A DNA stretch of 64,000 nt, taken from the IMG/VR virus record IMGVR_UViG_3300020371_000004, positions 1-64,000 of that record. The stretch is one strand, 5' to 3'. This DNA is from a virus. A program made the position numbers and the translations under genes. A model generated the notes under the pieces. The model did no database searches. It worked only from the letters and a program-made list of their open reading frames with translations, and was not told the origin of the DNA. Each line of letters starts with the position of its first letter. Position 1 is the stretch's first letter. Below, piece after piece: positions 12,101 through 53,516 of the stretch.

Positions 12101-13871
12101 TATTAAAGTTAATTTTGAAGGAAGAGGATATAGTAAAATTCCAAGAATTGATACGATTGACAGTGATTCTGGTTCTGATGCTGTTATCAAAGCATCATCA
12201 AATACAATTGGTAAAATTGACCTGATTGAAAGGGTTAAGGATGGATTTGATTATCCAACGGACCCAACATTGAGACCAATTCTTAGTGTTCCAGCAGTTT
12301 GTCAGATTAAGGACATTGCTAGAATTGATAATATTGGAATTACGACTGGAGGTAAAGGATACCAGGTTGCTCCAACTCTGAAAGTCATTGGAAATGATGA
12401 TATTGAACTGGAAGCATCAATTCAAGGTGGTAGTGTAACTAATGTTGTAGTCAATAGAAATACTAAAAATCTAAATGGTCCACTAAAAATCGTTGCAACA
12501 CGAAATTCTAATGGATATGACATTGATGATATTACTTACAATATTAGTCAAAATGAAGTTACTCTTGAACTAGTAAACTCAGACTCACAAATCTACCCTC
12601 TAAGTGGAGAATTCCCATTTGAGGTTGGAGATGAGATTTTTGTTGAAAATACAAGAATTTCTGATGCAGATACTAAAAATGGTTATAATTCTTCTGATTA
12701 TAACTATAGATTCTTTGTTGTAAGTGGAATTAGCACAACTAATTTTACAGTCACTTACAGTATGAATGGATTTGGTACAAATCTTGGTGACTACAATACA
12801 GATATCAATTATGGTTATGTAATAAACAAGAAAGATATCGCAACTTTCAAGATGAACATCATTGATGACCTTGGGTATTTCTCTGGTGAAAATGTCATTG
12901 GTTATAACTCTCTAAACCAGCAGGTATTCTCTGCTAAAGTCATGGAGAGTGGATGGGATAATAAAATTAACCAATTGAGACTTATTGACAGTGAAGGTGT
13001 ACTAAAACCTGGTGATAAACTATTAGGTAGTAGGTCTAGATTGTTTGGTACAGTTGAAACTGCTTCCCAATTTAATCTAACAGCTGAACTTCATACTACC
13101 AGAGAGAAAGTCAATGACCTTAAGGATAATGCTGGTTACTTAAATGATTATCAACAAAGAATTGCTGATAATGATTATTATCAAAAGTTCTCATATGCAT
13201 TGAAATCTGAACTTTCTTATGAAAGATGGAGAGAGTCTGTTAGATCATTGGTTCACCCAGCAGGATTTAAGGAATTCTCTGACCTTGATGTTATTTCCAA
13301 CACATCTTCAACAGGTCAAAATATGAAGGTTGGTGTTGGTGATTCTTCACTAAATGTGCTCATCAATGTAGATGGTGGTGGGTCCATGTATGCAAGAAAT
13401 AACTTTGCAATGGTTACTGAGGATGAAATTCTACCAAATGGCACCATTGAACGTATTTTCTTCCCAGAGGGAGTAAATCTCAGACCATATATTCTCAATA
13501 AGACCAATAAAGTTCTGGCAATTGATGATATAAGTTCAAAATTCACTGGATTTACAACTACTACTGGTGGTCAAATAGTTGGACTAACAACATTCTCACT
13601 TACAAATAAAGGATTCCCACTATTCTATAGAGAGTTTGATGGTGGTAATGAGACAAACTTTGATATACAAAGTGATAGATTTACATTCCAGAATCACAAT
13701 TTCCAGTCTGGGCAGACTCTTAAGTATGTGACTAAAGATGTTCTTAGAACACCAGTTGGAATTGCTAATACTTTTGTTGAAAATTCTTTCTCATATCCAT
13801 CACCAACAAATACATTTGATTCTCCATTCGATAGTTATGATTCAACTGTCAGAACATTCGATGAGAATTAA
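6105..13871 (+). CDS. giant baseplate wedge protein (gp7 position) with YHYH domain, 2588 aa
   Basis: It occupies the place of T4 gene 7 but is about 2.5 times longer than T4 gp7. The N-terminus (IETQIPEFLNEDSPLFREF) and C-terminus (YERWRESVRSLVHPAGFKEF) look like conserved virion segments. Between them are many beta-rich modules. Some are of a GSGY type (for example TNPGSGYDVINPPELEI), others of a DNEIIYYKS type. At residues about 1218-1320 lies a YHYH-family domain, recognised by HSPIVGWAYDGNPIYGPYG, a GDLDEFNGRF motif and TPEYPDGIYAYF. It starts two bases after gene 6. Its role is probably structural, in the wedge outer region. The gp7 name is by position, not by sequence match. Confidence 0.75.
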   Translation: MSDNRVTIQHIIETQIPEFLNEDSPLFREFLDAYYVSQEHKTGTIDLAARLPELKDLKAYNNELFASALVPSLLAAEVTAFDTDISVSHTIGFPDKDGLIRIDNEIIYYKSKSANGFSGCSRAFSGITNILENAVSNYSETDLAPHSAGSQVTNLSLIFYAELFEKFKSQFLPGFEERQFVPQVEISNVLARAVDFYTTKGTDTSYKLLFRALYGENVEVIKPQEFLLRPSDDSFFRTKNILVEKISGSDPLELNGKTLYQEVGNVEPATAAIFVVEYRPVDNKDLYEISLDSSSFIYNFKTTKKTNISKPVSVNSTTINVDSTIGFPNTGTLTVTDGNSFFNVSYTERTNNQFLGCSGIVSEIPFGSEVLEANFAYVYDDNGDKVEFRLINVIGNINYEKTSNLLKGDKISLSSFGAELSDKPEFNTWIYNNVTNHKIKSISLANASSGNRYRIEFFDNINFFLDQEVILKQIEIATDSGIPGVVQNLISDRIVEVECSTSPLDKDTLTTSLMLGKSDQNATPSVSTIPIAIQNTYIDERNENFYVAASGLPNYTLFTKEQVITTSTQVSVGNTDVLDTDRVHKFYTGEKIYYTPNTNSGIDTGIYHVTTVGDVKDSKKVKLSLSKSDLYSKKYITFRDISGDSFVKLDYENRVVENQKLFKKFNFVKGDPSLREVATRTTNNRQIGLLVNGIEVYSPSLFDENIYYGKLESILVTNPGSGYDVINPPELEIKDTQGTGAKAYLNISGGLSDIRIVTPGIGYQTKPKITLVGGNGKGAVIEPNLVKSQIVAGFQGDGTGVNPTTDIISFINKHNFDNGEQVSYITNGNAELRPFKEDSVYFVGVESPTEIKLYDKESDALQKVNPVNIVGISSGFHSFKTLEAKNTITQLYVLNSGSGYSNKIVKIPSLIAFDGTNNGVNTWDHYIHATDHKFKDKDIVRYSTTGDVISGLSTSNEYVITVVSKDTFKLSDIGGTDEFFDVNHREKRYININGIGTGVHTFSYPPISLKIETLSGIGATSIIEPNFEPIVLGSIDSVFVEDTGVGYGVSDVINFHRRPDIQIKDIKSEALLRPIVVNGSIVDVQFLTFGSGYEKGIDLVVTGDGTFADLRPVVDDNGRVVAVNIANGGIGYNSDTTEITVTRRGIDAKFLGDVFEWKINQAEKHKELLSTPDEALIVPSKVKEFGLHPVNFYTPKLLRRTLKDHIDDSNREKPDNTHSPIVGWAYDGNPIYGPYGAVGSSIQKIRSSYAKKVEPNPLLRPSTFPEGFFLNDFYYDRAIGDLDEFNGRFCKTPEYPDGIYAYFTTIDNSAVAKPEYPYVVGEFFRDYVIPRNYEPNFNQTISIEDLNLIRNTSPYYLDSETSTYDLLQKSNEKYKQEFSVTSTLNSGIDGVSIYSPGTGYKVGDNINFNNFGTGGTGASGVVSRIKGKPINTIEVGISTHTGVKLFTTGNSVIGFTQEPHGYVTGEIIQVSAVSDAVQANFEGSREIFVPQKTVNLLSDIDTLAATGLTTSITVGDVNGFNTNDFIRIGEQETAQIVRISPEESKFTVNRLSNSGIHTVGISSITLLPTEFRFGLSAIKKQIPRNDLYFFDAKSFIGFGTQINNYTLSDGKNLPIPPGGIYIPNHNFQTGQELKYHVGYGGTGIYAGGQALQDGSTVYAINLGVNFVGLSTAPNVVTPLIINDNAVVTGAAHSLVSNYSNVTCKVEEFSLDVVTDGAHKLETAENVKFNLLPRLTDTFNVRYDTKLRKLTTEKVDFDATQGGVNISTNEINLPNNTFETGDKIAYYVGSGTTIGGLVDNQTYFVIKEKPDFIRLSDFFINANNGVGISLTSYGTGTQQFAKINPPLTGTKQNIIKFDLSDPSLTGMDLRIFKDSSLSIDLETYRYRRNSIESGLPGAELIIDSSEEFIGNTLFYNIIPLAPSVVEKRQSSADTEVVGNNKIILKPSIFNQQYSVVSIGTTTFKFNLKDKPEYFNYTVNSGVSTIFYDTDSRTTDGPISDIKVNFEGRGYSKIPRIDTIDSDSGSDAVIKASSNTIGKIDLIERVKDGFDYPTDPTLRPILSVPAVCQIKDIARIDNIGITTGGKGYQVAPTLKVIGNDDIELEASIQGGSVTNVVVNRNTKNLNGPLKIVATRNSNGYDIDDITYNISQNEVTLELVNSDSQIYPLSGEFPFEVGDEIFVENTRISDADTKNGYNSSDYNYRFFVVSGISTTNFTVTYSMNGFGTNLGDYNTDINYGYVINKKDIATFKMNIIDDLGYFSGENVIGYNSLNQQVFSAKVMESGWDNKINQLRLIDSEGVLKPGDKLLGSRSRLFGTVETASQFNLTAELHTTREKVNDLKDNAGYLNDYQQRIADNDYYQKFSYALKSELSYERWRESVRSLVHPAGFKEFSDLDVISNTSSTGQNMKVGVGDSSLNVLINVDGGGSMYARNNFAMVTEDEILPNGTIERIFFPEGVNLRPYILNKTNKVLAIDDISSKFTGFTTTTGGQIVGLTTFSLTNKGFPLFYREFDGGNETNFDIQSDRFTFQNHNFQSGQTLKYVTKDVLRTPVGIANTFVENSFSYPSPTNTFDSPFDSYDSTVRTFDEN

Positions 13872-21820: not shown

Positions 21821-24800
21821 ATGCCACAAAATACTAATTTAAATGTATCTCCATACTTTGATGATTTTGATTCCGAAAAGAATTATCAAAGAGTTCTATT
21901 TAAACCAGCAACTCCACTTCAGGCAAGAGAACTAACGACTTTACAATCCATTCTTCAGAATCAGATTGAAAAGTTTGGACAGCACTTCTTCAAAGAAGGT
22001 TCTGTTGTTATTCCTGGTCAAATTGCATACGATTCTCAATATACTTCTGTCCAAATTGATGAGTCACACCTTGGTGTTCCTGTATCTCTTTATATTCAAA
22101 GTTTAATTGGAAAGACAATTAAAGGTGAGAATAGTGGTGTAAGGGCAAAAGTTGAAAATTATATTACAAATACTGAATCAGAAAGAGACAACTATACACT
22201 ATATCTTAAGTATCAAAGCTCTAGTGATGATGACTTTTCTACAGAAAAGTTTGTTGATGGTGAGAACCTTGTAGCAGAAGAAGATATTTTCTATGGTGTT
22301 TCTGCTATCAGAGATGGTTCCACATTTGCAACTACAATTATCCAAAATTCTACAGCAATTGGTTCTGCTGTAAAGATTGCTGCTGGTGTTTACTTTGTTA
22401 GAGGATTCTTTGTAGAGGTAAATCCACAGACAGTAATTCTAGACCAATATACTAGCAATCCAACATATAGAGTTGGTCTATTAATTAATGAAGAATTGGC
22501 AGTTGCTTCCAATTCATATGAAGATTTATTTGATAATGCACAGGGATTTTCTAATTTCTCAGCACCTGGTGCTGATAGATTAAAGTTCGGATTAACTTTA
22601 ATCAAAAAAGAGATTGATGATTTCAACGATGAAAACTTTGTTGAACTTCTAAGAGTAGAGAATGGTGTTCTTAGACAATTTGTAAAAGAGAGCAACTATA
22701 ATTTAATTAGAGATGAGTTAGCAAGAAGAACTTATGATGAATCTGGTGATTACTATGTAAGACCATTTTCTCTTACTATAAGAGAGTCTCTAAATGATAG
22801 AGTAGGAAATAATGGTGTATTTAATGAGAATCAAGCAACTAAGTCTGGAAATTCTCCAAATGACAATTTAGGATCACTTCTTGTATCTCCAGGTAAAGCA
22901 GTAGTTCGTGGATATTCATTAGAAACCATTGATACGACTATTGTTGACTTTGAAAAACCAAGAACTACTGCAAAAGCAGAGAATCAGGCAATTCCATTTA
23001 GTGTTGGAAGACAAATTTTTGTCAATAATGTAAATGGTTCTGCTCCTGTTGGATTTGGTTCAACTTCCCAAATAGCACTATATGATACAAGAACATCACA
23101 GGAAGGTCTTGTATCTGGTCAGAAAATTGGTATTGCAAGACTATATGATTTAAAGTTAAGAAATGCTAGTTATGAAGGTGCTAATACTCAATTTGAAGCA
23201 TCTTTATATGATGTTCAGACATATACTGTATTGCGTCTAAATGCTACAACAAACTTATCCAAATCAACATATATTGAAGGAAACTCTAGTGGTGCCAGTG
23301 GTTATGTTGTAGAAGATGTAGTAGCAACAGACTTAGTAAAACTATACCAAGTTTCTGGAACATTTAAAAAAGAAGAATCGTTATCATTTAATGGTATTTC
23401 TGATGGAAGAATAATTACAAATATTCGTGATTATTCTTTAGGAGATGTTCATCAAATTGCATCTGACAACTATGCTGTAGGTCTTGGAACATTTACTGCA
23501 GACCCAGTTTTATCTCAAGTAACTATTCTCACAGAACCTGGTGCTCAATTCAGTATTACTGCAGAATCTCTAGGTGTCAGTACAGTAACAAGTTCTAGTC
23601 CAGCACCATTTGTTGGAATTCAAACTGGTGATATCGTATCTTATACTAAGCAAGGTTTTAGTATTCCAACCTTGAATAAAGTTATTGAAGTAACTCAAAG
23701 TGAAATTAAAATTGCAGAGACTACCGATTTAGCAAATATCAATGATGGTGCTCTTCCTTCTGTTGGAATCACTGCTAATGACTTTAAGAAAGTATCATTG
23801 GAAGTTCTTAATACTTCAAATGCTTTCTTGTTTGCTAAATTAAATCATAAAAATGTTGAGAGTCTTGATCTCAGCACGTCTTCCATTATACTTAGAAAGT
23901 CATATAGTGTAAACGTTGTATCAAATGCGTTCTCTGCAACTCTTGAATCTGATATTGATTTAACTTTAGAACCATTTGATGAAGAAGATTACAGTCTTGC
24001 ATATACTGCTGGTGATATTGAACCTCTTAATAACCAAAAGGTTGCTGTATCTGGAAGAACTATTGGTCTTAGCAACTTGACCCAAAATGGTCCTGCTATA
24101 CTTACAGTTACCTATAAGAAAGTAAACACCACCGAGAAAGCAAAGACATTTAATAGATGTGAAAGTCTAATTATCAATGGTTCTAACCAGACCTCATCTG
24201 GTGTTGGTAGAACTACTCTTAATGATGGTCTGATTAACAGAGAATATTATGGATTGAGAGTTCAGGATAGAGACATATCATTAAATGTTCCTGATGTTGT
24301 TAATGTTCTTGGAATTTATGAGTCTTCTACTGTAAATGACCCATCTCTCCCAAGAATACATTTTAGTGCGTTAAATTCAAGTATTGGAAACCTAATTAGA
24401 GGTGAAAGAGTCATTGGTTCAACCACTGGAGCAGTTGCAGCATTTGTTGAATCTGATGGCAATAATATTGCAGAAATTGTTTATCTGAATGAGAATAGAT
24501 TTGCACTCAACGAAGAGGTTACTTTCCAAGAAACCAATATTACTGGAACAATTAGTGCTGTTGATGTTGGTGATAAGAATATCAAAGAAAACTTTATTCT
24601 AGATAATGGTCAAAGACCAGAAATTTATGATTATGCTAGGTTGATTAGAAAGTCTGGAGTATCTGCTCCTACTAAAAAAATTAGAGTAATCTACAACTCA
24701 TATAGCATTTCTTCTTCATCGGAAGGTGACTTTGTATCTGTAGATTCTTATGGAAGAGACAGATACAGCAAAGATATTGCAACTATTAATGGTGTCAGAA

Positions 24801-27800
24801 ATTCTGACATGATTGATTTAAGACCAAGAGTTACGGAATTTAATGTATCCTCGGCAGATAAGTCACCTTTTGAATTTAATGCAAGACTCTTTGAATTAAA
24901 TGCAAACTCAAGTGATTCAATTGTAGCAAAAGATAGAACAATCAATCTATCTTACAATTTCTATCTACCAAGAATTGATAAACTATTCCTAACCAAGGAA
25001 GGAACGTTTACCATTAATAAAGGTGTTCCATCATTAGCACCAAAATCACCAAACAAGTTAGACTCTGCACTTGAAATTGCTACCATATATTTCCCAGCAT
25101 ATCTTTACAATACTAAAGATGCAAGAGTATCTCTATCTACACATAAGAGATATACCATGAAGGATATCTCTAGACTTGAGGATAGACTATCTAATGTTGA
25201 ATTCTATAGTTCATTATCTCTTCTAGAGACAGATACCAAAAACCTTTCAATCAGAGACCCACAGACTGGTCTTGATAAGTTTAAGTCAGGATTCTTTGTA
25301 GATAACTTTAAGTCATATGATGGTGGTGACCTGTCAAACCCAGTTTACAGGGCATCTGTAGACACCGCATATGGTTACTTAAGACCACAACACTACACAA
25401 CTTCGGTTGACCTAGTTGTTGGTTCTGAAGCAGTTATTGGCATTGGAACAACATCTAACCCAGATGTTGACCTGAGATTTGCTACTGATTTGGGTAATAG
25501 CAACGTCAAGAGAATTAATGACCTTGTTATCCTTGATTATAGTGATAAACTATATGTAGAAAACAGATTTGCTACTAGAGTTGAGAACGTAAACCCATTC
25601 AATACACCAAGTTGGATTGGTAGTATTGAACTAAACCCATCTACAGATACTTGGGTAGAAACTAGAAGAACAGAAAGAACGGATGACGTTGAAGGCAACT
25701 TTGAAGCAACAATGTCTCAGTTGGGTGTAGATTCCAATACTGGTCTATCACCAGTCAATTGGAATGTATGGGAAACAAATTGGGTTGGTGTAAACAATGT
25801 AGAAGGACCAGTAATTACACAAATTCAAAACGGTTCTAGAATTGTTGATACTAGTGTCACTACTGATTGGTGGAGCAGAACAACTACAACTACTTGGGAA
25901 GATTCATTCACACAGTTCAGAAATGATACATTTACCACTACAACAGAACAATCTAGACAAGGTATTCAGTTTGGTGTAAGTGAGAGATTTGATACTGTAA
26001 ATCTTGGTGACAGACTTGTCTCTAGAGTTCTCATTACCTTAATGAGGTCTAGAAATGTTGAAGCAGTTGCTAGAAGACTAAAACCATCCACTAGATTCTA
26101 CGCATTCTTCGATAATACTGATGTAACCAACTTCATAGTTCCAAAACTGATTGAAGTCAGGATGACAAGTGGAACTTTCCAAGAAGGTGAAACAGTCACT
26201 GGATTTATACCAGTTTCTGGTACAAATAGGTCTATTACTTTCCGTCTTGCACAGCAAAACCATAAGTACGGTCCATACAACATTCCTACTGAAACATATA
26301 GGGAAAATCCTTATAATCCAAATAGCACACTATCTAATTCATATTCATCAACAACTACTGTTCTGAACGTTGATACTGCAAGTCTTGAGAATCAAGCAGA
26401 TTCAAGATTCTTCGGTTCAATCGTTAAAGATATGCAACTTGTTGGTTCTGATAGTAATGCAGTTGCAACAGTTTCTGACATTAGACTTATCTCTGACTCT
26501 GCAGGAACCCTAATTTCTTCATTCTTTATTCCTGACCCAACTGTTCCATCAAACCCAACGTTTGAAACTGGAACTAAGACACTTAAGTTGACGACAAGTC
26601 AGGTCAATAGTGACATTAAAGGTATCTCTGACAGTATGGCAGAGGCAAACTTCACTGCTAGTGGTAATATTGATAATATTGAGAATACTACTCTTAGAAT
26701 TAGAAATGCTGAAGTTGAAAGAAACATTAGAAATGAGAATAGAACTCTTACAGAGACGGAAGATAGATTAGTTGCTAACACCATTACAACTAACAGATTG
26801 GAAACATCTAGAGTAAGGATTAGATGGGTTGATCCACTTGCTCAGACGTTCCAGGTTCTTGATAATAATGGAATTTTTGTCACCAAGTGTGAATTGTACT
26901 TCCAGTCAATTGACCCAGGAAATATCCCTTGTACTTTAGAGATTAGAACTTCTGAACTTGGTCAACCAACACAGGAAATTCTACCTTTTGCAGAGGTCAG
27001 CCTCAATCCAAGTGAAATTAATGTTTCTGATGATGCATCAGTCCCAACAACGTTCACATTCCCTGCACCAGTATTCCTGGAAGGTGGAAATGACTATGCA
27101 CTAGTCTTGATTTCAAATTCCAATGAATATAATGTCTGGATTTCCAGAATGACTGAGGTTGATGTTTCAACCAGCAACAAACCAGAAGCAGAGAAGATTA
27201 TTGTTTCTCAGCAACCATCTCTTGGTTCACTATTCAAGTCACAGAATGGTGCTACTTGGGAACCATCTCAGTTAGAAGACCTTAAGTTCTCTCTTTACAG
27301 AGCAGAATTCACTTCACAGACAGGAAGTTTCCGTTTCTACAACCCAGATTTGGGTGTAGGCAACAGACAGATTGCATCATTGAGACCAAATCCAATTGTT
27401 GCTGAGTCTAAAGAAGTTCTTGTTGGTATGTCTGGAAGTCTAACTTCAACAGATGTTACCAATCTAATTCCTGGAACATCTATATTCCAGGCAAATTATC
27501 CAAACTTCTCTGCTAAACTCAAGAGTATTGTTGGTACGATTGGAATTGGAAGTGCTCTATCAATTACAAATTCTGGTACTGGATATACTAGCAATGCGAC
27601 CTACAGTAATGCACCACTAACAACTATCAGTGGTAGAGGGTTTGGTGGTAAAGTCAATATCACAATTTCTAATGGTGTTGCAGTTGCAGCAACTGTATCT
27701 GTTGGTGGTACAGGATATGCTATGGGTGATACCCTAACAGTTGAACCACAATATACTGGAAACTTTGGTGAGAATCTTATTATTTCTATTCCGAATGAGG

Positions 27801-29353
27801 TTGGTGTCATCACAGCATTCAATTCGTTAATTGTTGACCAAGTACAGGATGAATTAAATGCTTCAGGAATTGGCAATGAAATTTCATACGTTAATCCTTC
27901 AAATGGTATTTCAACAATCAGCAATGGTTATGTAAACTATACTGAGACACTATCTGATGGTCTACATTTCAAGGTTAACCATAACAATCATGGAATGTAT
28001 GATGTTTCAAATAAAATTACCCTATATGGAATTGAATCAGACGTTGCTCCAGAAAAACTAAGTGCTGATTATAATCAGTCTTCCACTGCTGAGATACAAC
28101 TTTCAAATGTTGGAATATTCACTTCATTTGAGAATCTACCAGTTTCTACTGATAATCCAGGTTACATTAAGATTAACCATGAAATCATTAAGTATACTGC
28201 TGTAGATACATCACTGATGCAACTCAGTGGTATTACTAGAGGAATTGATGATAATACTGATGATATCTATCCATCAGTTATGGTTGGTTTGCATCCAGCT
28301 GGTTCACCAGTATTTAAGTATGAATTTAATGGTGTTTCATTGAGAAGAATCAATAGAACTCACTCTATGAATCAAGTTGATTCTAAGTATCAAATCGAAA
28401 TGGATAGTTACTATCTCAAGATTGTAACCAATGAGCAGGGTAAAGATAGATTGTTTGGTCCACCAAAACTTCACTTTAATGAAACTAAGACTGGTGGAAC
28501 ATATGATATGAATATTTCAGCATCTGGATCTAATATTCTTGGTGGTCCTAAAGCATCACAGAATGTTCAGTTTGATAGTATTAGACCTAATGTTCAAAGA
28601 CTTCTTCCAGAATCTACAATCATTGATGCTAAGATTAGGACTGTAAGTGGTTCAAGTGTTGATGGTAGTGAAACACCATTCCGTAGCAGTGGTTTTGAAC
28701 CAATTTCACTCAATTCAAATAATCTTTTCAATACACCAAGAATTATTGCTTCCAGAGTAAATGAACTTCAACATTTGCAAAGTAGCAATGGTTATAAGTC
28801 ATTTGAAATGGAGATGAATCTGGCAACAACAGATACTAAGGTATCTCCAGTTATTGACTTGGATAGAGTTAATGTCATTACCACAATGAACAGAATTGAC
28901 TCACCAGTTACCAATATGTTGAGTGATAAGAGAGTCAATAGTCTTTACGATGATCCACACTCTGCAATCTATGTCTCAAGAGTAATTAGATTGGCAAAAG
29001 GTTCTACTGGACTTAAGGTTTACTTTGATGCATATAGAGATGCAACCAATGATATTAGGGTAATGTATAGATTACTGAGACCAGATACTCCAGACAATCA
29101 AGAGTTGTTTGAATTTATGCCTGGTTTTGAAAATCTAGATAGCAATGGAAACATTCTTGATCCTAAGAATAATAATGGATTACCAGACAGACTAGTAAAT
29201 CCATCTGCATCTCCTTCTGATTTGAGGTCTTATGAATTCACTTCTAAAGAAGTTCCATTGTTTGATGGATTCCAAATCAAAATTATTATGAGTGGAACAA
29301 ATCAAGCATATGTTCCTAAGATTAAAGACTTGAGAGTAATTGCAACTATCTGA
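21821..29353 (+). CDS. giant DUF4815-type virion protein, 2510 aa
   Basis: The N-terminus (LNVSPYFDDFDSEKNYQRVL, then ATPLQARELTTLQSILQNQI and FGQHFFKEGSVVIPG) matches the DUF4815 domain known from phage tail proteins. Long beta-rich stretches follow, then a coiled-coil-like piece near residues 1600-1660 (AEVERNIRNENRTLTETEDR). A conserved domain begins with RIRWVDPLAQTFQV (about 1667-1680), a GSGY module (SITNSGTGYTSNATYS), and a C-terminal beta domain ending in KIKDLRVIATI. It may replace T4 gp10 or connect baseplate to fibres; this is positional inference. Its stop overlaps the next start (TGATG). Confidence 0.75.
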   Translation: MPQNTNLNVSPYFDDFDSEKNYQRVLFKPATPLQARELTTLQSILQNQIEKFGQHFFKEGSVVIPGQIAYDSQYTSVQIDESHLGVPVSLYIQSLIGKTIKGENSGVRAKVENYITNTESERDNYTLYLKYQSSSDDDFSTEKFVDGENLVAEEDIFYGVSAIRDGSTFATTIIQNSTAIGSAVKIAAGVYFVRGFFVEVNPQTVILDQYTSNPTYRVGLLINEELAVASNSYEDLFDNAQGFSNFSAPGADRLKFGLTLIKKEIDDFNDENFVELLRVENGVLRQFVKESNYNLIRDELARRTYDESGDYYVRPFSLTIRESLNDRVGNNGVFNENQATKSGNSPNDNLGSLLVSPGKAVVRGYSLETIDTTIVDFEKPRTTAKAENQAIPFSVGRQIFVNNVNGSAPVGFGSTSQIALYDTRTSQEGLVSGQKIGIARLYDLKLRNASYEGANTQFEASLYDVQTYTVLRLNATTNLSKSTYIEGNSSGASGYVVEDVVATDLVKLYQVSGTFKKEESLSFNGISDGRIITNIRDYSLGDVHQIASDNYAVGLGTFTADPVLSQVTILTEPGAQFSITAESLGVSTVTSSSPAPFVGIQTGDIVSYTKQGFSIPTLNKVIEVTQSEIKIAETTDLANINDGALPSVGITANDFKKVSLEVLNTSNAFLFAKLNHKNVESLDLSTSSIILRKSYSVNVVSNAFSATLESDIDLTLEPFDEEDYSLAYTAGDIEPLNNQKVAVSGRTIGLSNLTQNGPAILTVTYKKVNTTEKAKTFNRCESLIINGSNQTSSGVGRTTLNDGLINREYYGLRVQDRDISLNVPDVVNVLGIYESSTVNDPSLPRIHFSALNSSIGNLIRGERVIGSTTGAVAAFVESDGNNIAEIVYLNENRFALNEEVTFQETNITGTISAVDVGDKNIKENFILDNGQRPEIYDYARLIRKSGVSAPTKKIRVIYNSYSISSSSEGDFVSVDSYGRDRYSKDIATINGVRNSDMIDLRPRVTEFNVSSADKSPFEFNARLFELNANSSDSIVAKDRTINLSYNFYLPRIDKLFLTKEGTFTINKGVPSLAPKSPNKLDSALEIATIYFPAYLYNTKDARVSLSTHKRYTMKDISRLEDRLSNVEFYSSLSLLETDTKNLSIRDPQTGLDKFKSGFFVDNFKSYDGGDLSNPVYRASVDTAYGYLRPQHYTTSVDLVVGSEAVIGIGTTSNPDVDLRFATDLGNSNVKRINDLVILDYSDKLYVENRFATRVENVNPFNTPSWIGSIELNPSTDTWVETRRTERTDDVEGNFEATMSQLGVDSNTGLSPVNWNVWETNWVGVNNVEGPVITQIQNGSRIVDTSVTTDWWSRTTTTTWEDSFTQFRNDTFTTTTEQSRQGIQFGVSERFDTVNLGDRLVSRVLITLMRSRNVEAVARRLKPSTRFYAFFDNTDVTNFIVPKLIEVRMTSGTFQEGETVTGFIPVSGTNRSITFRLAQQNHKYGPYNIPTETYRENPYNPNSTLSNSYSSTTTVLNVDTASLENQADSRFFGSIVKDMQLVGSDSNAVATVSDIRLISDSAGTLISSFFIPDPTVPSNPTFETGTKTLKLTTSQVNSDIKGISDSMAEANFTASGNIDNIENTTLRIRNAEVERNIRNENRTLTETEDRLVANTITTNRLETSRVRIRWVDPLAQTFQVLDNNGIFVTKCELYFQSIDPGNIPCTLEIRTSELGQPTQEILPFAEVSLNPSEINVSDDASVPTTFTFPAPVFLEGGNDYALVLISNSNEYNVWISRMTEVDVSTSNKPEAEKIIVSQQPSLGSLFKSQNGATWEPSQLEDLKFSLYRAEFTSQTGSFRFYNPDLGVGNRQIASLRPNPIVAESKEVLVGMSGSLTSTDVTNLIPGTSIFQANYPNFSAKLKSIVGTIGIGSALSITNSGTGYTSNATYSNAPLTTISGRGFGGKVNITISNGVAVAATVSVGGTGYAMGDTLTVEPQYTGNFGENLIISIPNEVGVITAFNSLIVDQVQDELNASGIGNEISYVNPSNGISTISNGYVNYTETLSDGLHFKVNHNNHGMYDVSNKITLYGIESDVAPEKLSADYNQSSTAEIQLSNVGIFTSFENLPVSTDNPGYIKINHEIIKYTAVDTSLMQLSGITRGIDDNTDDIYPSVMVGLHPAGSPVFKYEFNGVSLRRINRTHSMNQVDSKYQIEMDSYYLKIVTNEQGKDRLFGPPKLHFNETKTGGTYDMNISASGSNILGGPKASQNVQFDSIRPNVQRLLPESTIIDAKIRTVSGSSVDGSETPFRSSGFEPISLNSNNLFNTPRIIASRVNELQHLQSSNGYKSFEMEMNLATTDTKVSPVIDLDRVNVITTMNRIDSPVTNMLSDKRVNSLYDDPHSAIYVSRVIRLAKGSTGLKVYFDAYRDATNDIRVMYRLLRPDTPDNQELFEFMPGFENLDSNGNILDPKNNNGLPDRLVNPSASPSDLRSYEFTSKEVPLFDGFQIKIIMSGTNQAYVPKIKDLRVIATI

Positions 29354-45457: not shown

Positions 45458-46183
45458 ATGGCTAATAAAAGTTTTTCCGTTAGAGAATTTGAGATTGTTG
45501 GAAATTCTGGCAATTCTAAATTAACATCTACCGAGTATATTGAACTTAATACACCTAGAGTTGCTATTAGCACTGACTTAACTGTTGGTGGAACAGTGAG
45601 GAGTGATATAAGTCTTCCAGGACATAGTTTAACTGCTCTTCAGGCAAACATAACAGGGGTTACAACCATGTCCTCTGTCAGTGTTGTTGGTGTATGTACG
45701 GCAGCATCTTTCTCTGGTTCTGGAGTAGGTTTAACTGCGTTATCTGCACCGCAACTTACTGGTTCTTTACCTGCACTAGATGCATCATCACTTACCAATA
45801 CTGTTGGAACTATCACTGCTGGAGCAGGAGTAACAATAAATCAAGGGACGGGAACAGTACATGTATCCCAAGGAATTACTTATGTTGTTGGTGGTAACAC
45901 TAGTGGATATACAATGGTTGGTCCAGGTGTTTTGCAGACATCTTTAAATCCAACCATTTATTTACATAGAGGATTTGTATATATTTTTAACAATACCACT
46001 GGTTCAGGTCACCCATTCCGTATTCAATATACTGGTACAACAACTGGATACGGTAGCACATGGGTAACTGGAAATACAGCAGGGACTCAGATGTTTGTTG
46101 TTCCTCATGATGCTCCAAGCACTCTTGAATATCAATGTACTATCCACCCTGGAATGAAAGGGACATTTGTTATACCTTCTTGA
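45458..46183 (+). CDS. short fibre protein ending in a cupredoxin domain, 241 aa
   Basis: Residues 1-110 repeat the N-terminus and fibre motifs of the 973-aa protein (ELNTPRVAISTDLTVGGTV; TAASFSGSGVGLTAL). Residues about 150-241 form a cupredoxin-like beta sandwich. The strand PTIYLHRGFVYIFNNTTGSG leads to His185 (GHPFRIQ), and YQCTIHPGMKG supplies Cys227, His230 and Met233. The C-x2-H-x2-M spacing and a His about 40 residues earlier are those of amicyanin-type blue copper proteins. A type-1 copper site is therefore expected; binding is inferred. Its place after the fibres and proteases suggests a tail-tip location. There is no signal peptide, unlike periplasmic cupredoxins. Confidence 0.75.
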   Translation: MANKSFSVREFEIVGNSGNSKLTSTEYIELNTPRVAISTDLTVGGTVRSDISLPGHSLTALQANITGVTTMSSVSVVGVCTAASFSGSGVGLTALSAPQLTGSLPALDASSLTNTVGTITAGAGVTINQGTGTVHVSQGITYVVGGNTSGYTMVGPGVLQTSLNPTIYLHRGFVYIFNNTTGSGHPFRIQYTGTTTGYGSTWVTGNTAGTQMFVVPHDAPSTLEYQCTIHPGMKGTFVIPS

Positions 46184-46265
46184 CAAGACTATTCATATAT
46201 GATTATAATGAGTCTGTGGACGGTCAAGGGTTACTTATATCTTTAAATACTAGATTCTAACTAAC

Positions 46266-46272
46266 CTAAATA
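46266..46272 (+). promoter_or_regulatory. T4-type late promoter
   Basis: CTAAATA 129 bases before ATG 46395. Transcription should start near 46279, directly before the three-way-junction leader. Confidence 0.6.
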
Positions 46273-46283
46273 GTCAAATATGG

Positions 46284-46394
46284 AAGGTTTCTAGTGACTT
46301 GTAAGGAAATAAAAGTTACTAAGAATATTCAGGGTGTTGCGAGTATGCCCTGTCTAGAAACCTTTGTACGCATTAGAGAGAGGATGCGTTAAGT
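46284..46394 (+). promoter_or_regulatory. structured 5' leader: three-way junction plus SD-in-loop hairpin
   Basis: Outer stem: 46284-46294 pairs with 46354-46364, 11 perfect bp. Arm 1: 46295-46300 with 46313-46318, 6 bp with one G-U. Arm 2: 46330-46337 with 46345-46352, 8 bp with two G-U and a 7-base loop. A separate hairpin, ACGCAT (46368-46373) with ATGCGT (46384-46389), holds the Shine-Dalgarno sequence GAGAGAGG in its 10-base loop, just before ATG 46395. An in-frame-independent ATG-CGT-TAA mini-ORF (46384-46392) lies in its 3' side. It is not a tRNA: there is no TpsiC arm and only three helices. Confidence 0.6.
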
Positions 46395-49300
46395 ATGGCT
46401 CTCTTTCAATACAACTTAGGCAGTGAAATTCCGTTTAGTAGTATTGATTATGGATTTATTAATGAAACACCTACAACCCCATCGGAAGACCACGGAGATT
46501 TAGCAGTAGTTGCTCAGACGACTATTGCTCCAGATGATATTGTCTCCACATATAGTGGTAGTCTTAGCACCGTAACTATTACTAATACTGGAAGTGGTGT
46601 TGGTGAGTTTGGTGGATTTAATGTAGCAAGACATATTAAGTTTACTGGAGCTGGTACAAGAGCATTTACTTTTGCATTTGATACAAGTAATCGTGAAGAG
46701 ATAACATTTTCAGTTATTCGTGGCACTGATTCAAATGGTGGTGAACTTCCTGATAGTGGTGAAGACCTTCTATTTGAATATTCAACTAATGGTGGAAGCA
46801 CTTGGACTGGAACCCAAGTTTTAGCTGCATACAATGATACTGCATTTAATAATTTAAATGATGTTACTGTAACACTACCTACAGCAGCAAGAGTATCTAA
46901 TGCACAGTTTAGAATTAGACAAGCAAGTAATAGTGGTTCTAATTATGATCAATGGGGTGTAACTGCAGTTACTATTGGTGGTGAGATACTTACTACTGAA
47001 GATTATGGATTCTTAACACCTGCAAGGCAGACTGTTCCATACGGTAGACTCAAGATTGTTCAAGAGTTTGCTGACGACAGACTACTCAGGAATAGTGTTG
47101 GTGGTATTGAATTTACCCTTGGTGGTAAAGCAAATATCTTTACTCTACCAATTCATGTTGGTAGAGGATTCTTGCGTCTTGATGGCAAGGAGTTCACAAG
47201 AATTACTCTGCGTTACATCGGAAGTGGCACATTCAGCCACTTCGGTGGATCTGCAGAGGCAGTATCGAATGCAACACCAGCACAAACACCACTCTTCACG
47301 GTTGCTGGTGTTGCTACCGAAAAATTTGGAAAAGGAAATTATACAGCAACAGGTCAGTTCTCCGCATTCACGGGTGCCGCAGAGGTCGTATCCATCAGTG
47401 GAGCAACAAGACAAGACCTATTCAGAATTAGAGGTGCAGCACACGATACTCACACAGAGAATTACGTTGGTGAGGGTAGACTATTTGCTGTACAAGGTGC
47501 TTCAGAAGCATTTAAAGTCGAAGAGAAGGCAAGTGGTCTATTCTCCTTTAAAGGCACCTCCAAAGAAACTATACAATCAAATAACGTTGTATCTGTTGAG
47601 ACTCAGATATCTGGTTCTGGTTCAGAGTCAATTACACCTGCGGTACGACCAGGTTCTGGAGAGGCAACGTTTAGTGGTGCAATTACAAATGAGCATGTAA
47701 GGTTCCATCAATTTGGTACTGGTACATTATCTTCCTTCAGTGGAACTGCAGAAACAAGCAACAGAGTTGTATTCAGTTACAATGAAAGTTCTGTTGTTAA
47801 TGCAGAAACTCTTGATTATGGACTTATTACTGAAGGATTTGCGGATGAACCAATCAGTAATTACGCAAATGTACCAATTAGTACACTTGCAAATGAAGTA
47901 GTATCTGAGTTTGGAAGATATCCAAATAGAGAGGAATTTGGTCATATTTCTATTGACCCAGAGCAATCTATTCATACTCCTGGATATAACCATGTTGATT
48001 ATGGTTATATTAATACCACCAATAGATTCCCATTCGGTAAGTTCCAATCTGAAGATGGTGGAGACTTAACTTATGAGTCTGCACAAATTGGAATCAGAGT
48101 CAGACCCATTACACCTGGTCCAACACTCCGACTTGAAGGTACTGCAGGTATCTTTACACTACCAATTCATAAAGGTGAAGGATACTTCAGATTTGAAGGT
48201 AAGTCTGTTGTTAGAATTAGAGCAGTCTACTACGGATCTGGTAAGTTCAGTAACTTCGGTGGTAGTGCTGAAGCAACTTCAAATGCTGATTCTGGAAGGA
48301 AGATTCTCTTCAGAGTTGCTGGTGATGCACATGCTGTTGTGCGTTTTGTTTATATTGGAGAAGGTTCTCTCTTTACATTTGTTTCCAAGACAGAATCCAC
48401 TTCAGTCACAGAAAAACCACAAGCTCTTTACAAGTTTACTGGTTCTGCAGTCGAAAAGAATACCGAGAACTATGTTGGTACAGGTTCTCTATTTACATTT
48501 GTTTCTTCTACAGATTCTACTGTTATCAACAGTGCAGCATCTGGTCTCTTTACCTTCAAGGGTTCGGGTATCGAGAAGAATACAGAGAACTATGTTGGTC
48601 AAGGTTCTTTGTTTACATTTGTTTCCAAGTCGGAAGCAACTGTTGTTCAGTCTGTCGCACAAACACTATTCAGATTTACAGGTGCGATTACAAACGAGCA
48701 TGTAAGATTCCACCAGTTTGGTACTGGAACATTCTCTGCCTTCAGTGGAACTGCATATCACGAAAGAGTTGCATTCGATTATAATGAAGACTCTATTGTT
48801 AATGTCAGACATGATAATTATGGATTAATTACTGAAGGTAGTGCTGACCAACCAATTTCCGACTTTGCTAACGACCCAATTAGTCTTTACGCTAATGAGC
48901 AAGTCTCCGAGTTTGGTAGATTTGCGAATAGAGAGGACTTTGGTCACATTTCTATTGACCCAGAGCAATCTATCAACACTCATGGTCATCGTCATGATGA
49001 TTATGGTTACATTAATACCACCAATAGATTCCCATTCGGTGGATTCACCTTTGAAGATGAAAATGAAGGTGTTGATACTGCAGGAATTAGATTCCAACTC
49101 AGAGCACCTACATCAGGTACTGAACTTAGACTTCAGGGTCAAGCTGAAATTTATGTACTCCCAGTACACATCGGTGGTGGTATCACCAGATTTGCTGGAG
49201 ATGCAACTATCAGAATCAGAGCCGTCTACTACGGATCTGGTAAGTTTAGTAACTTCGGTGGTAGTGCCGAGGCAATTTCCAATGTTGACTCTGGAAGACA

Positions 49301-52300
49301 AGTTCTCTTCAGAGTTTCTGGTGATTCCCATAATACTATACGTTTCGTCGAGGTTGGTACAGGTTCTCTATTCACCTTCGTATCCAAGACGGAATCCACT
49401 TCAGTTACAGAAAAACCACAAGTTCTCTACAAGTTTACTGGTTCTGCAGTCGAGAAGAACACAGAATCTTACGTTGGAAAGGGTTCTCTATTTACATTTG
49501 TTTCTTCTACAGAATCCACTGTTATCAACAGTGCAGCATCTGGTCTTTTCTCTATCAAAGGTTCAGCAGAAGAAAAGAATACAGAAGTATATGTTGGAAA
49601 AGGTTCTTTGTTCACATTTGTTTCCAAGTCGGAAGCAACTGTTGTTCAAAGCAAAGCTCAAGGATTGTTCAAGATTTCTGGTGCAATCACAAACGAGCAT
49701 GTCAGATTCCATCAGTTTGGTACTGGTACATTCTCTACATTCAGTGGAACTGCCTATCACGAAAGAGTTGCGTTTGATTACAACGAAGATTCTATCGTTA
49801 ATGTTGACCATGAGAATTATGGTTTCATTACTCAAGGTAGTGCTGACCAACCAATTTCTGACTTTGCTAACGACCCAATTAGTCTCTATGCTAATGAGCA
49901 GGTCTCTGAATTCGGAAGATTCTCCAATAGAGAAGACTTTGGTCATATCTCTATCGACCCAGAGCAATCCGTCAACACTCATGGTTGGAATCATATTGAT
50001 TATGGTTACATTAATACCACGAACAGATTCCCATTCGGTGGATTTACCTTCGACGATGGCAGTGTTACATCTGCAACTTCCAAGTTACAGGTAAAACTAC
50101 CTGTCGAAGGACCTGTATTCCAAATCAGTGGTGTTTCGGACAATCGTGTACTACCAGTTATTATTGGTGGTGGATTCACCAGACTTGGTGGAGATGCACT
50201 TGTCAAGATTACCGCAGTTTGGTACGGATCTGGTTCAGTATTCTCCTTTGTTGGTGGTGCAGAAGCAACTTCATCTACTGTACCAACAGAAGCACCACTT
50301 CTCGACTTCAATGGTACTGCAAGGGAGAGATTTGGAAAGGGCAACTACGATGCCAGTGGTACATTCTCCACATTCTCTGGTGCTGGAGAAACTGCAATTA
50401 TCAGCAACAAAGCAGACGTTCTCTTCGATGTTAACGGTACTGCTATTGAGAAGCATACCGAAAATTACGTTGGAGAAGGTTCTCTCTTCGGATTTGTCTC
50501 TGCTACAGAATCTACTGTTATCAACAGTGCAGCATCTGGACTCTTCAAGTTCCAAGGTGGAGCAATCGAGAAGAACACCGAGAACTATGTTGGTACTGGT
50601 TCTCTGTTTGCATTCGACAGTTCTACAGAAGCAACGGAAGTTCTCAGCACTGCATCTGGACTCTTCAAGTTCAGTGGTGCTGCAACCAATGTTCAGGTCA
50701 GGTTCCACCAGTTTGGTACTGGTTCACTCTTTGGATTCAATGGTGGAGCAGAGTCTGTCACATTCGACTATAGCTGCCATGGTTCGATTGTTAACATTGG
50801 GGCAGATAATTATGGATTCATTACTGAATCTGTTGTTGACCAGACAATTACTGATTATGCAAATGAGCAGATTAGCACTTATGCGAATGAGGTAGTATCT
50901 GACTTTGGTATTGATCCTAATCAGGAATCCTTTGGACATATCTCCATCGATCCTGAGCAATCCATCAATACTCATGGTTGGAATCATGAAGATTATGGAC
51001 TTATCACCGAACCTGAAGGTGGTAATAAGTTCCCATGTGTCCATCTCAAGTTTGGTGGAGAAAGATTCAACGAATCCAGAGTCTTTGGATATGCAGGTTC
51101 TGGTACATTCTCTACATTCTCTGGTGCTGCAGAAGCAAGAGCAATTGTACCTCCTTCTAAGGGTCTATTTAAAGTTCATGGTTCTGGTGGTATTATTGCT
51201 TCCCTATCCCATATTGGATCTGGTGAAATCCACATTGGTGATTCTGGAATTGATAAGTTTATCAAGGTTCAATTCTCCCCACCAACCACTGGTGTTCTAT
51301 TCAAGTTCTCTGGTGGACTGGATGTCAGTGGTGTCAACGAGAGACCATCCGACCTCAAGGCAACATTTGCAGAAGTTGGACATGCAAAACTCCGCATTGC
51401 AGGAGATGCATTTACTACCTTCCATCTTGGACATATTGGAAGTGGTCAACTCGATATCAATGGCAATGCTATCGAGAAGCATACCGAAGCATACGTTGGT
51501 TCTGGTTCTCTCTTCGCATTTACTGGTGGGGCAGAAAGTTTCACTGTCGATCTTCCAGAATTTGCAACTCTATTCAGATTTGCTGGAAATGCAGTCGAGA
51601 AGAATACCGAGAACTACGTTGGTACGGGTTCTCTGTTCACCTTTGTTTCCAAGACAGAATCTACAACTTCTGCGGAACAACCAAAAGTACTCTTCAATAT
51701 CGAAGGTGCTTCTGTCAACAGAATCCTATTCCATTACTACGGTACTGGAAACTTCTCCACATTTGGTGGTGCTGCAGAAGCAAGAGCAGTCACCAAGGAA
51801 GCAGGTGGTCTGTTCACATTCAGTGGCAACGCACCAGAATCCATCACTCCAGCACCACATATTGGTTCTGGTTCTCTGTTTACATTTGTTGGCAAGACAG
51901 AAGCATTTGTCGCAAGCGACGACTTGGTTGCACCACCACTATTCAAGATTGGTGGAGATGCAATCATTGGATTCTCTCTTGGTATTATTGGTCGTGGTGG
52001 ACTCGATGTTCTCCAGAAAGTTACCAAACTCGATGTTGAAGGTAAGAACAGATTCGTTGGTGCTCAAGAAAGAAGAGCAATCAACAATCCTGCTTCTGTA
52101 CTCTTCAGTATCGACGGAAACGTCAAAATCTTCTTTGTCTTCCAAGAAACTGGTGGTGGATTTACCAGAGTTGCTGGAGAAGCATTCACTGAAGTTACAC
52201 CTAGACATACTGGTCGTGGTAAGACTTCTCTACATGGTGAGGTCACCATGTCTGCTTCCCTATCTCATATTGGATCGGGAACAATCTTCGGATTCGTTGG

Positions 52301-53516
52301 TGGTGCAGAATCTCGTGCAATAGACCTCCCACCACAAAAGGGACTACTCAGATTTGCTGGTACTGCACCAGAAGTTTATATCCGTGGACCAGAACTTGGA
52401 GATGTATCTCTCCAACTCAAGTCTTCCGACGTATTTGTCAGATTCAAGCTCAGCCATATTTCGGATGGTTCCAGAATCCATGTCGATGGAGATGGAGCAG
52501 AAGCAAGAGTCAGACCATACGAAGGTTCTGGTACACTCTTTGGATTCAGTGGTGCAACGGAAGCTCGCACAATCGACCTCCCACCACAGGTTCCAACACT
52601 CTTCAGATTTGCTGGAAACTCTGGAGAAAGAGAAACCAATGCACATCTTGGTTCTGGTTCACTCTTTGGATTCGATTCTGCAACAGAAGTCAGAGTTGCT
52701 TCCCCAGAACTTTCTGGACTATTCAAAGTTCAGGGCACTGGTGCAGAAGCAAAAACCAAGGTATTTACTGGTTCTGGTGTATTCGATCTCAACACCAAGA
52801 CAGACGGACTGGATACTCTTGGCAAGCAAGTTTATATCAGTGCTCCAGAATCTACAACTGTCAATCCACCAGAACATACTCAGGTATTCACTTTCTCTGG
52901 TTCTGCTGTTGCTACAGAAGACAGAGCATATCAGGGAACTGGAACACTATTTGGATTTACAGGAGCAGCAGAATCCAGAGCAGTTGTACCAGATTCTACA
53001 GGTCTATTCAAGGTTCAGGGTTCTGGAGAAGAATCCAGAAGCAGAATTTACTCTGGAACAGGAAGAGTATTTGGATTTACTGGTGGTGCAGAGGCAACAG
53101 CAGTTACCGAAAATGTACCAGGTTCTCTCTTCAAATTTACTGGAGAAGTTACTGTTGTTCGCAGATTCCCACCACATGTTGGTTCTGGAACACTATTCTC
53201 CTTCACTGGTGCAACAGAATCTCAAACAATTGCACCACCAGTTGCAACACTCTTCGAGTTCAACGGAAACGTTGCAGAATCCAGAAGCAGAGTTTACACA
53301 GGTTCTGGAACACTCGTTACATTCAAGTCTGCAACTATCGCAAGACGTGTTCCATACGATGTTACTCAGGGACTTTTCAAACTTGTTGGAGCACTCAACG
53401 AATCTTTTGTTCCTTCTGGATACGTTGGTACGACTGGAGTTCAATTCATTGGGGCATCTACAGATAGAAGGATTGAATTTGAGTCACCAAAACCAACACA
53501 AATATACATCGTCTAA
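46395..53516 (+). CDS. giant nested-repeat virion protein, 2373 aa
   Basis: The N-terminus is ALFQYNLGSEIPFSSIDYGF. Residues about 45-195 resemble a reelin-type beta-sandwich with an Asp-box-like EDLLFEYSTNGGSTW. The rest is repetitive. Short units of about 36 residues (KNTENYVGTGSLFTFVS... TEST... INSAASGLFKF) alternate with a longer block (ADQPISDFANDPISLYANEQ, FGHISIDPEQSINTHG, DYGYINTTNRFPFG). The block recurs about every 1000 bases, starting near 47770, 48772, 49773 and 50763. No enzyme motif. It is probably a long extended fibre or adhesin. It is preceded by a late promoter and a structured leader. The C-ending codon use over the repeat part creates long false ORFs in other frames. Confidence 0.8.
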   Translation: MALFQYNLGSEIPFSSIDYGFINETPTTPSEDHGDLAVVAQTTIAPDDIVSTYSGSLSTVTITNTGSGVGEFGGFNVARHIKFTGAGTRAFTFAFDTSNREEITFSVIRGTDSNGGELPDSGEDLLFEYSTNGGSTWTGTQVLAAYNDTAFNNLNDVTVTLPTAARVSNAQFRIRQASNSGSNYDQWGVTAVTIGGEILTTEDYGFLTPARQTVPYGRLKIVQEFADDRLLRNSVGGIEFTLGGKANIFTLPIHVGRGFLRLDGKEFTRITLRYIGSGTFSHFGGSAEAVSNATPAQTPLFTVAGVATEKFGKGNYTATGQFSAFTGAAEVVSISGATRQDLFRIRGAAHDTHTENYVGEGRLFAVQGASEAFKVEEKASGLFSFKGTSKETIQSNNVVSVETQISGSGSESITPAVRPGSGEATFSGAITNEHVRFHQFGTGTLSSFSGTAETSNRVVFSYNESSVVNAETLDYGLITEGFADEPISNYANVPISTLANEVVSEFGRYPNREEFGHISIDPEQSIHTPGYNHVDYGYINTTNRFPFGKFQSEDGGDLTYESAQIGIRVRPITPGPTLRLEGTAGIFTLPIHKGEGYFRFEGKSVVRIRAVYYGSGKFSNFGGSAEATSNADSGRKILFRVAGDAHAVVRFVYIGEGSLFTFVSKTESTSVTEKPQALYKFTGSAVEKNTENYVGTGSLFTFVSSTDSTVINSAASGLFTFKGSGIEKNTENYVGQGSLFTFVSKSEATVVQSVAQTLFRFTGAITNEHVRFHQFGTGTFSAFSGTAYHERVAFDYNEDSIVNVRHDNYGLITEGSADQPISDFANDPISLYANEQVSEFGRFANREDFGHISIDPEQSINTHGHRHDDYGYINTTNRFPFGGFTFEDENEGVDTAGIRFQLRAPTSGTELRLQGQAEIYVLPVHIGGGITRFAGDATIRIRAVYYGSGKFSNFGGSAEAISNVDSGRQVLFRVSGDSHNTIRFVEVGTGSLFTFVSKTESTSVTEKPQVLYKFTGSAVEKNTESYVGKGSLFTFVSSTESTVINSAASGLFSIKGSAEEKNTEVYVGKGSLFTFVSKSEATVVQSKAQGLFKISGAITNEHVRFHQFGTGTFSTFSGTAYHERVAFDYNEDSIVNVDHENYGFITQGSADQPISDFANDPISLYANEQVSEFGRFSNREDFGHISIDPEQSVNTHGWNHIDYGYINTTNRFPFGGFTFDDGSVTSATSKLQVKLPVEGPVFQISGVSDNRVLPVIIGGGFTRLGGDALVKITAVWYGSGSVFSFVGGAEATSSTVPTEAPLLDFNGTARERFGKGNYDASGTFSTFSGAGETAIISNKADVLFDVNGTAIEKHTENYVGEGSLFGFVSATESTVINSAASGLFKFQGGAIEKNTENYVGTGSLFAFDSSTEATEVLSTASGLFKFSGAATNVQVRFHQFGTGSLFGFNGGAESVTFDYSCHGSIVNIGADNYGFITESVVDQTITDYANEQISTYANEVVSDFGIDPNQESFGHISIDPEQSINTHGWNHEDYGLITEPEGGNKFPCVHLKFGGERFNESRVFGYAGSGTFSTFSGAAEARAIVPPSKGLFKVHGSGGIIASLSHIGSGEIHIGDSGIDKFIKVQFSPPTTGVLFKFSGGLDVSGVNERPSDLKATFAEVGHAKLRIAGDAFTTFHLGHIGSGQLDINGNAIEKHTEAYVGSGSLFAFTGGAESFTVDLPEFATLFRFAGNAVEKNTENYVGTGSLFTFVSKTESTTSAEQPKVLFNIEGASVNRILFHYYGTGNFSTFGGAAEARAVTKEAGGLFTFSGNAPESITPAPHIGSGSLFTFVGKTEAFVASDDLVAPPLFKIGGDAIIGFSLGIIGRGGLDVLQKVTKLDVEGKNRFVGAQERRAINNPASVLFSIDGNVKIFFVFQETGGGFTRVAGEAFTEVTPRHTGRGKTSLHGEVTMSASLSHIGSGTIFGFVGGAESRAIDLPPQKGLLRFAGTAPEVYIRGPELGDVSLQLKSSDVFVRFKLSHISDGSRIHVDGDGAEARVRPYEGSGTLFGFSGATEARTIDLPPQVPTLFRFAGNSGERETNAHLGSGSLFGFDSATEVRVASPELSGLFKVQGTGAEAKTKVFTGSGVFDLNTKTDGLDTLGKQVYISAPESTTVNPPEHTQVFTFSGSAVATEDRAYQGTGTLFGFTGAAESRAVVPDSTGLFKVQGSGEESRSRIYSGTGRVFGFTGGAEATAVTENVPGSLFKFTGEVTVVRRFPPHVGSGTLFSFTGATESQTIAPPVATLFEFNGNVAESRSRVYTGSGTLVTFKSATIARRVPYDVTQGLFKLVGALNESFVPSGYVGTTGVQFIGASTDRRIEFESPKPTQIYIV
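47770..51033 (+). repeat. four ~1-kb tandem repeat units in the giant gene
   Basis: A conserved block of about 265 bases (encoding YNEDSIVN... to NTTNRFPFG) begins near 47770, 48772, 49773 and 50763. Units 2 and 3 are the most alike and unit 4 is the most degenerate. Each unit is filled with several 108-111-base sub-repeats. These are likely sites of recombination and of assembly error. Confidence 0.75.

Follow-up and report, generated by a model that had tools for sequence, protein, structure and literature searches.

A predicted structured leader RNA before a giant repeat protein gene in T4-like cyanophages

Overview

A folded leader of 116 nucleotides (46279–46394, + strand) precedes the gene for a giant repeat protein (46395..53516, + strand; 2373 amino acids; PHROG 11522, of unknown function) in the window, by which we mean the whole 64,000-nucleotide stretch of viral DNA that was analysed. 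In the reading that we prefer, and that we hold with about as much confidence as doubt, it is a cis-acting 5′ leader of a late transcript in which a three-way junction caps the mRNA and two mutually exclusive hairpins restrain initiation. Judging from computation on two distinct sequences, the fold probably adjusts the frequency of ribosome initiation on the gene. Late leaders are generally short in this type of T4-like cyanophage, and a leader that is long, folded, and kept marks a gene that seems to be worth post-transcriptional control.

The initial annotation had described the leader as a translation or stability control element for the largest repeat protein. Control of translation or stability is still the best reading, because the leader is exceptional among late genes and because substitutions, with one compensatory change among them, leave the junction intact. 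However, the Shine-Dalgarno sequence (SD), which had been thought to be displayed, is predicted to be hidden. Nor is the protein the largest, as two larger open reading frames lie in the window (2588 amino acids, 6105–13871, and 2510 amino acids, 21821–29353).

The protein is probably structural. Near its N-terminus it has a reelin-subrepeat-like domain (residues 80–195, Pfam PF21471), and relatives of this domain in other cyanophages sit in proteins that are annotated as baseplate wedge subunits. The upstream gene (45458..46183, + strand; 241 amino acids; PHROG 677) encodes a gp9-type baseplate wedge/tail fibre connector, whose homologs in cyanophages are annotated as gp9 or PetE.

The three-way junction

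The 11 bases at 46284–46294 (AAGGTTTCTAG) are fully complementary to 46354–46364 (CTAGAAACCTT), as the initial annotation noted in proposing an 11-bp outer stem around arms of 6 and 8 bp. In the ensemble, however, the inner pairs of this stem (46292–46294) also belong to arm 1, which leaves an outer stem of 8–9 bp instead of 11 and makes arm 1 longer than 6 bp. According to the MFE and ensemble predictions and the consensus fold, the junction covers 46283..46365 (+ strand), and its outer stem (46283/46284–46291 with 46357–46364/46365) encloses two arms. Arm 1 (46292..46321, + strand) has 8–9 bp and a 12-nt loop (46292/46293–46300 with 46313–46320/46321; pair probability 0.98–0.99). Arm 2 (46330..46352, + strand) has the 8 bp first described (46330–46337 with 46345–46352; pair probability about 1), and its loop, UGCGAGU, is invariant in the window and in the two related contigs discussed below. 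Within this loop, UGCG (46339–46342) is complementary to CGCA at 46369–46372, in the 5′ arm of the hairpin H1 (see below). This might be a pseudoknot that connects the junction with the SD switch, although chance could easily give four pairs.

The leader has a predicted energy of −34.7 kcal/mol (z = −3.76), and none of 400 shuffled sequences was as low. The homologous leader in the contig L003 is also more stable than all of its 400 shuffles (z = −4.98). Of 400 background windows of the same length from the 64 kb, 14 had z ≤ −2.9 and 13 had an equal or lower energy, which places the fold of the leader within the top few percent; judged on energy alone, it is not unique. The strongest of the 400 windows tested, 47201–47316, lies in coding sequence (−50.9 kcal/mol, z = −7.5). 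As a prediction, the three-way junction is real.

Substitutions in related leaders

Our alignment of the leader has three sequences, two of them distinct: the window and the IMG/VR contigs L002 and L003. L002 is identical over 46279–46394 and L003 is 93% identical, with 10 substitutions; the same gene lies downstream in both. L003 is part of a contig of 250,613 bases that encodes the T4-type capsid protein gp23 and two photosystem reaction-centre genes, so we consider it to be from a T4-like cyanophage. (In this related contig, at G002:C1:163609-164465, the second photosystem reaction-centre gene is split between two open frames; possible causes are a frameshift, an assembly error, and a small insertion.)

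None of the 10 substitutions in L003 breaks a pair of the junction. The arm 2 pair 46333–46349 shows a compensatory change, from G-C in the window to A-U in L003; two one-sided changes in arm 1 give U-G pairs; and 5 of the 10 changes are crowded into the nine bases 46321–46329. When the same number of changes was placed at random, all pairs were kept with at least one compensation in just 0.26% of trials, and this rarity supports the junction. The initial annotation had named paired positions that vary without compensation as the observation to speak against the structure, and we saw none between L003 and the window. It had also looked to covariation in related leaders, which the junction shows as kept pairs and one compensatory change; there was no change in either of the alternative hairpins at the SD.

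A different explanation is that the leader has no function, being intergenic DNA from a recombination event that folds by chance. Indeed, a few percent of windows fold equally well, the leader is found in one lineage only, and overall it has diverged about as much as synonymous sites in the adjoining gene, so its conservation as such is not evidence. We nevertheless think that this is quite unlikely, given the pair-preserving pattern of substitutions, the preserved promoters (see below), and a window with 93% coding sequence and otherwise short late leaders.

No other carriers of the leader emerged from further scans by pattern and by protein, a DNA search of phage records found nothing, and neither this genome nor the relative has a second copy. 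Pattern matches in L006–L008 and L017–L018 proved to be unrelated DNA, and weak model matches in L035, L055, and L056 were at chance level, with broken pairs.

Homologs of the gene do occur behind other kinds of spacers. L030, L033, and L034 have the same N-terminus (MALFQYN or MALFQYE) and a late-type motif close by, which leaves no room for a structure of this kind. In S-CAM1, S-CAM3, and L005 the spacers are unrelated, and in S-CAM1 and S-CAM3 a terminator-like hairpin takes the place of the leader. As their leaders are short or unrelated, these six homologs cannot extend the alignment. Because they lack a comparable leader, the structured leader would most simply be a lineage-specific gain.

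Two promoters and a long late leader

Upstream of the leader is a sigma-70 promoter with a perfect match to the consensus (TTGACA-18-TATAAT, 46180..46209, + strand; 12/12), which the initial annotation overlooked and which has a predicted transcript start near 46216. It is inside the tail/baseplate gene cluster, and its −35 box overlaps the stop codon of the upstream gene. The hexamers are identical in L002 and L003, though the spacer has diverged in L003. The sigma-70 promoter could in principle yield a separate transcript, early or middle, that acts as a small non-coding RNA or as an R-loop primer for replication, with the fold being secondary. A perfect, conserved early-type promoter within a late gene cluster fits this idea, as does the A+T content of 68–74% downstream of it, which recalls the layout of T4 oriF and oriG, where a promoter is combined with an A+T-rich unwinding element (PMC3016281). 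But there is no terminator between the promoter and the gene, the cumulative GC skew does not turn at the site, and tandem early and late promoters, which are thought to give middle expression, are known in cyanomyoviruses without an origin (PMC2984593). We strongly doubt that a separate RNA is the explanation.

The second promoter is a T4-type late motif, CTAAATA (46266..46272, + strand), which is identical in L002 and L003. A late promoter at 46266 had been proposed in the initial annotation, and it is credible because CTAAATA is concentrated in intergenic DNA: 6 of the 7 copies in the window are intergenic, and intergenic DNA makes up 6.8% of the window (p about 7e-7). If the geometry is that of T4 late promoters, as we presume, then the late transcript would start at about 46278–46280, or about 4–6 nt 5′ of the first stem. 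Both this motif and its counterpart in L003 are 129 nt from the start codon; most late motifs in the window and the relative are 16–56 nt before the next start. (Some other late motifs are over 100 nt from the next start, and these may be chance matches.) The leader is an outlier in length for late genes of this type of phage.

In the related contig (G002:C1, about 220607–220642), a late promoter motif lies within a short palindrome (CTCTGACTAAATAGTCAGAG) just before the start of a gene, so that hairpin and late promoter look merged.

Two predicted exclusive hairpins at the ribosome binding site

The SD (GAGAGAGG, 46376–46383) lies in the loop of a hairpin that we term H1 (46368..46389, + strand; 46368–46373 with 46384–46389), and its distance from the AUG, 11 nt, is on the long side. 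H1 is the SD-in-loop hairpin of the initial annotation. It is present in the sequence and folds well by itself (z = −4.3), but it appears to be a transient state: it is optimal only for transcripts that end before about 46402 (with a probability near 1 up to 46400), and its probability falls below 0.02 once the start of the coding sequence is included. Folding of 46279–46420, a check that the initial annotation had suggested, gives the three-way junction but not H1; instead, the SD pairs with codons 2–4. The whole structure of that annotation does appear when the leader is folded alone (46279–46394), with no coding sequence attached. In this alternative helix, H2 (46376..46405, + strand), 46376–46382 pairs with 46399–46405 and 46384–46387 pairs with 46393–46396, which covers both the SD and the start codon and excludes H1. 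H2 is predicted to replace H1 from 46404 on and to reach a probability of about 0.9–0.97 once 46405 has been transcribed. So, at the predicted equilibrium, the SD is not displayed in a loop. The same exchange is predicted at both 25 and 37 °C, and also for L003; H2 does not differ between transcripts that begin at 46216 and at 46279.

How unusual is this arrangement? H2 alone is not exceptional relative to shuffles (z = −1.45). SD-to-early-codon helices of at least 8 bp are found in 7 of 212 genes. With −16.4 kcal/mol, the initiation region is more structured than that of any other of the 17 large genes in the window, and it ranks about sixth of the 212 genes of the window and the relative. 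The SD region (46355–46394) has no changes in 40 nt among the three sequences (p = 0.012), so neither H1 nor H2 has support from covariation; this invariance is compatible with constraint, but it does not tell H1 and H2 apart. We also considered conserved codons as proof of H2 and rejected this argument, as codons are mostly identical in any case where the residue is unchanged (177 of 198) and, by our own arithmetic, codon usage would give the needed codons with a chance of about 16%. In the cell, translating ribosomes may prevent pairing of the SD region.

A three-codon mini-ORF (AUG-CGU-UAA, 46384–46392) comes directly after the SD, with two bases between its end and the main start codon. 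This layout would permit termination-reinitiation; the mini-ORF is invariant in the three sequences and uninformative.

We propose the following sequence of events. Transcription from the late promoter would begin a few bases before the three-way junction, which would then cap the 5′ end and might slow decay. H1 would show the SD in its loop for as long as RNA polymerase remains close to the start codon. H2 would form next, with codons 2–4, and would bury the SD and the start codon; we infer this kinetic order from the predicted folds of successively longer transcripts. The net effect would be low or transcription-coupled initiation on a giant protein. Should H1 really give way to H2 in this manner, the leader would offer a compact example of an initiation site whose open period is confined to its own transcription. 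A stricter version, in which the leader is a co-transcriptional timer and ribosomes load only between the synthesis of the SD and that of codons 2–4 (possibly modulated at the junction by a ligand or a protein), is unlikely, but if true it would be a previously undescribed cyanophage leader RNA.

Alternatively, the leader could be purely an mRNA stabiliser, whose 5′-terminal stem shields the 7-kb message from RNase E-type decay, and H1 and H2 could be incidental. The predicted late start, just before the first stem, suits this role. Also, the substitutions support the junction, and H2 is not exceptional. On the other hand, a pure 5′ stabiliser does not need the SD hairpin, which is part of the invariant 46355–46394, and other long genes of this phage manage without such a leader. 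We consider pure stabilisation to be rather unlikely, though worth keeping in mind.

Comparison with known leader RNAs

Neither at the gathering score nor with a limit of E ≤ 5 did the leader match any Rfam family, and the same search recognised PhotoRC-II and wcaG in the related 250-kb contig. (In the related cyanophage contig there are two wcaG RNAs in tandem, L041 9751–9956.) PhotoRC-II, wcaG, manA, and glnA are structured RNAs that sit in possible 5′ leaders in T4-like cyanophages (PMC2864571, PMC9964418); in contrast, our leader precedes a repeat protein gene and not a photosynthesis or metabolic gene. Few structured leaders of a non-metabolic kind are on record for cyanophages, and this one would add to them.

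Could it sense a ligand or a protein, as a riboswitch or as an operator for a phage RNA-binding protein? A three-way junction with the invariant UGCGAGU loop, ahead of an SD switch, has the right look, and there are precedents: T4 gp32 and gp43 bind the structured leaders of their own mRNAs (PMC3014915), and cyanophages have structured metabolic leaders (PMC2864571). This is very improbable, however, given that nothing in Rfam matches even at E = 5, that a metabolite switch would be out of place on a structural gene, and that the element occurs once per genome and in a single lineage.

Another comparison is to T4 genes 38 and 25, which have split ribosome binding sites where a hairpin between the SD and the AUG aids initiation (PMC3014915). 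The likeness is that a hairpin lies at the SD and that the SD is rather far from the AUG. However, H1 holds the SD in its loop, and there is no hairpin between 46384 and 46394.

The closest likeness is to T4 genes e, soc, 49, and I-TevI, which have inhibitory structures at their initiation regions, with leaders that bury the SD (PMC3014915). These also come from a T4-type phage, with a late promoter and with the SD and start codon in a helix (here, the predicted H2). For gene e and I-TevI, the 5′ strand of the SD helix is missing from late transcripts, and this frees the SD. In the cyanophage leader, the blocking strand is instead in the coding sequence and is present in both transcripts; the predicted late start is upstream of every stem, and no strand of the SD helix is lost. 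We therefore reject an early/late switch of the gene e type, because transcripts from 46216 and from 46279 hold the same SD structure. The best reading is that the leader works like the inhibitory initiation-region structures of T4, but not as a switch of the gene e type.
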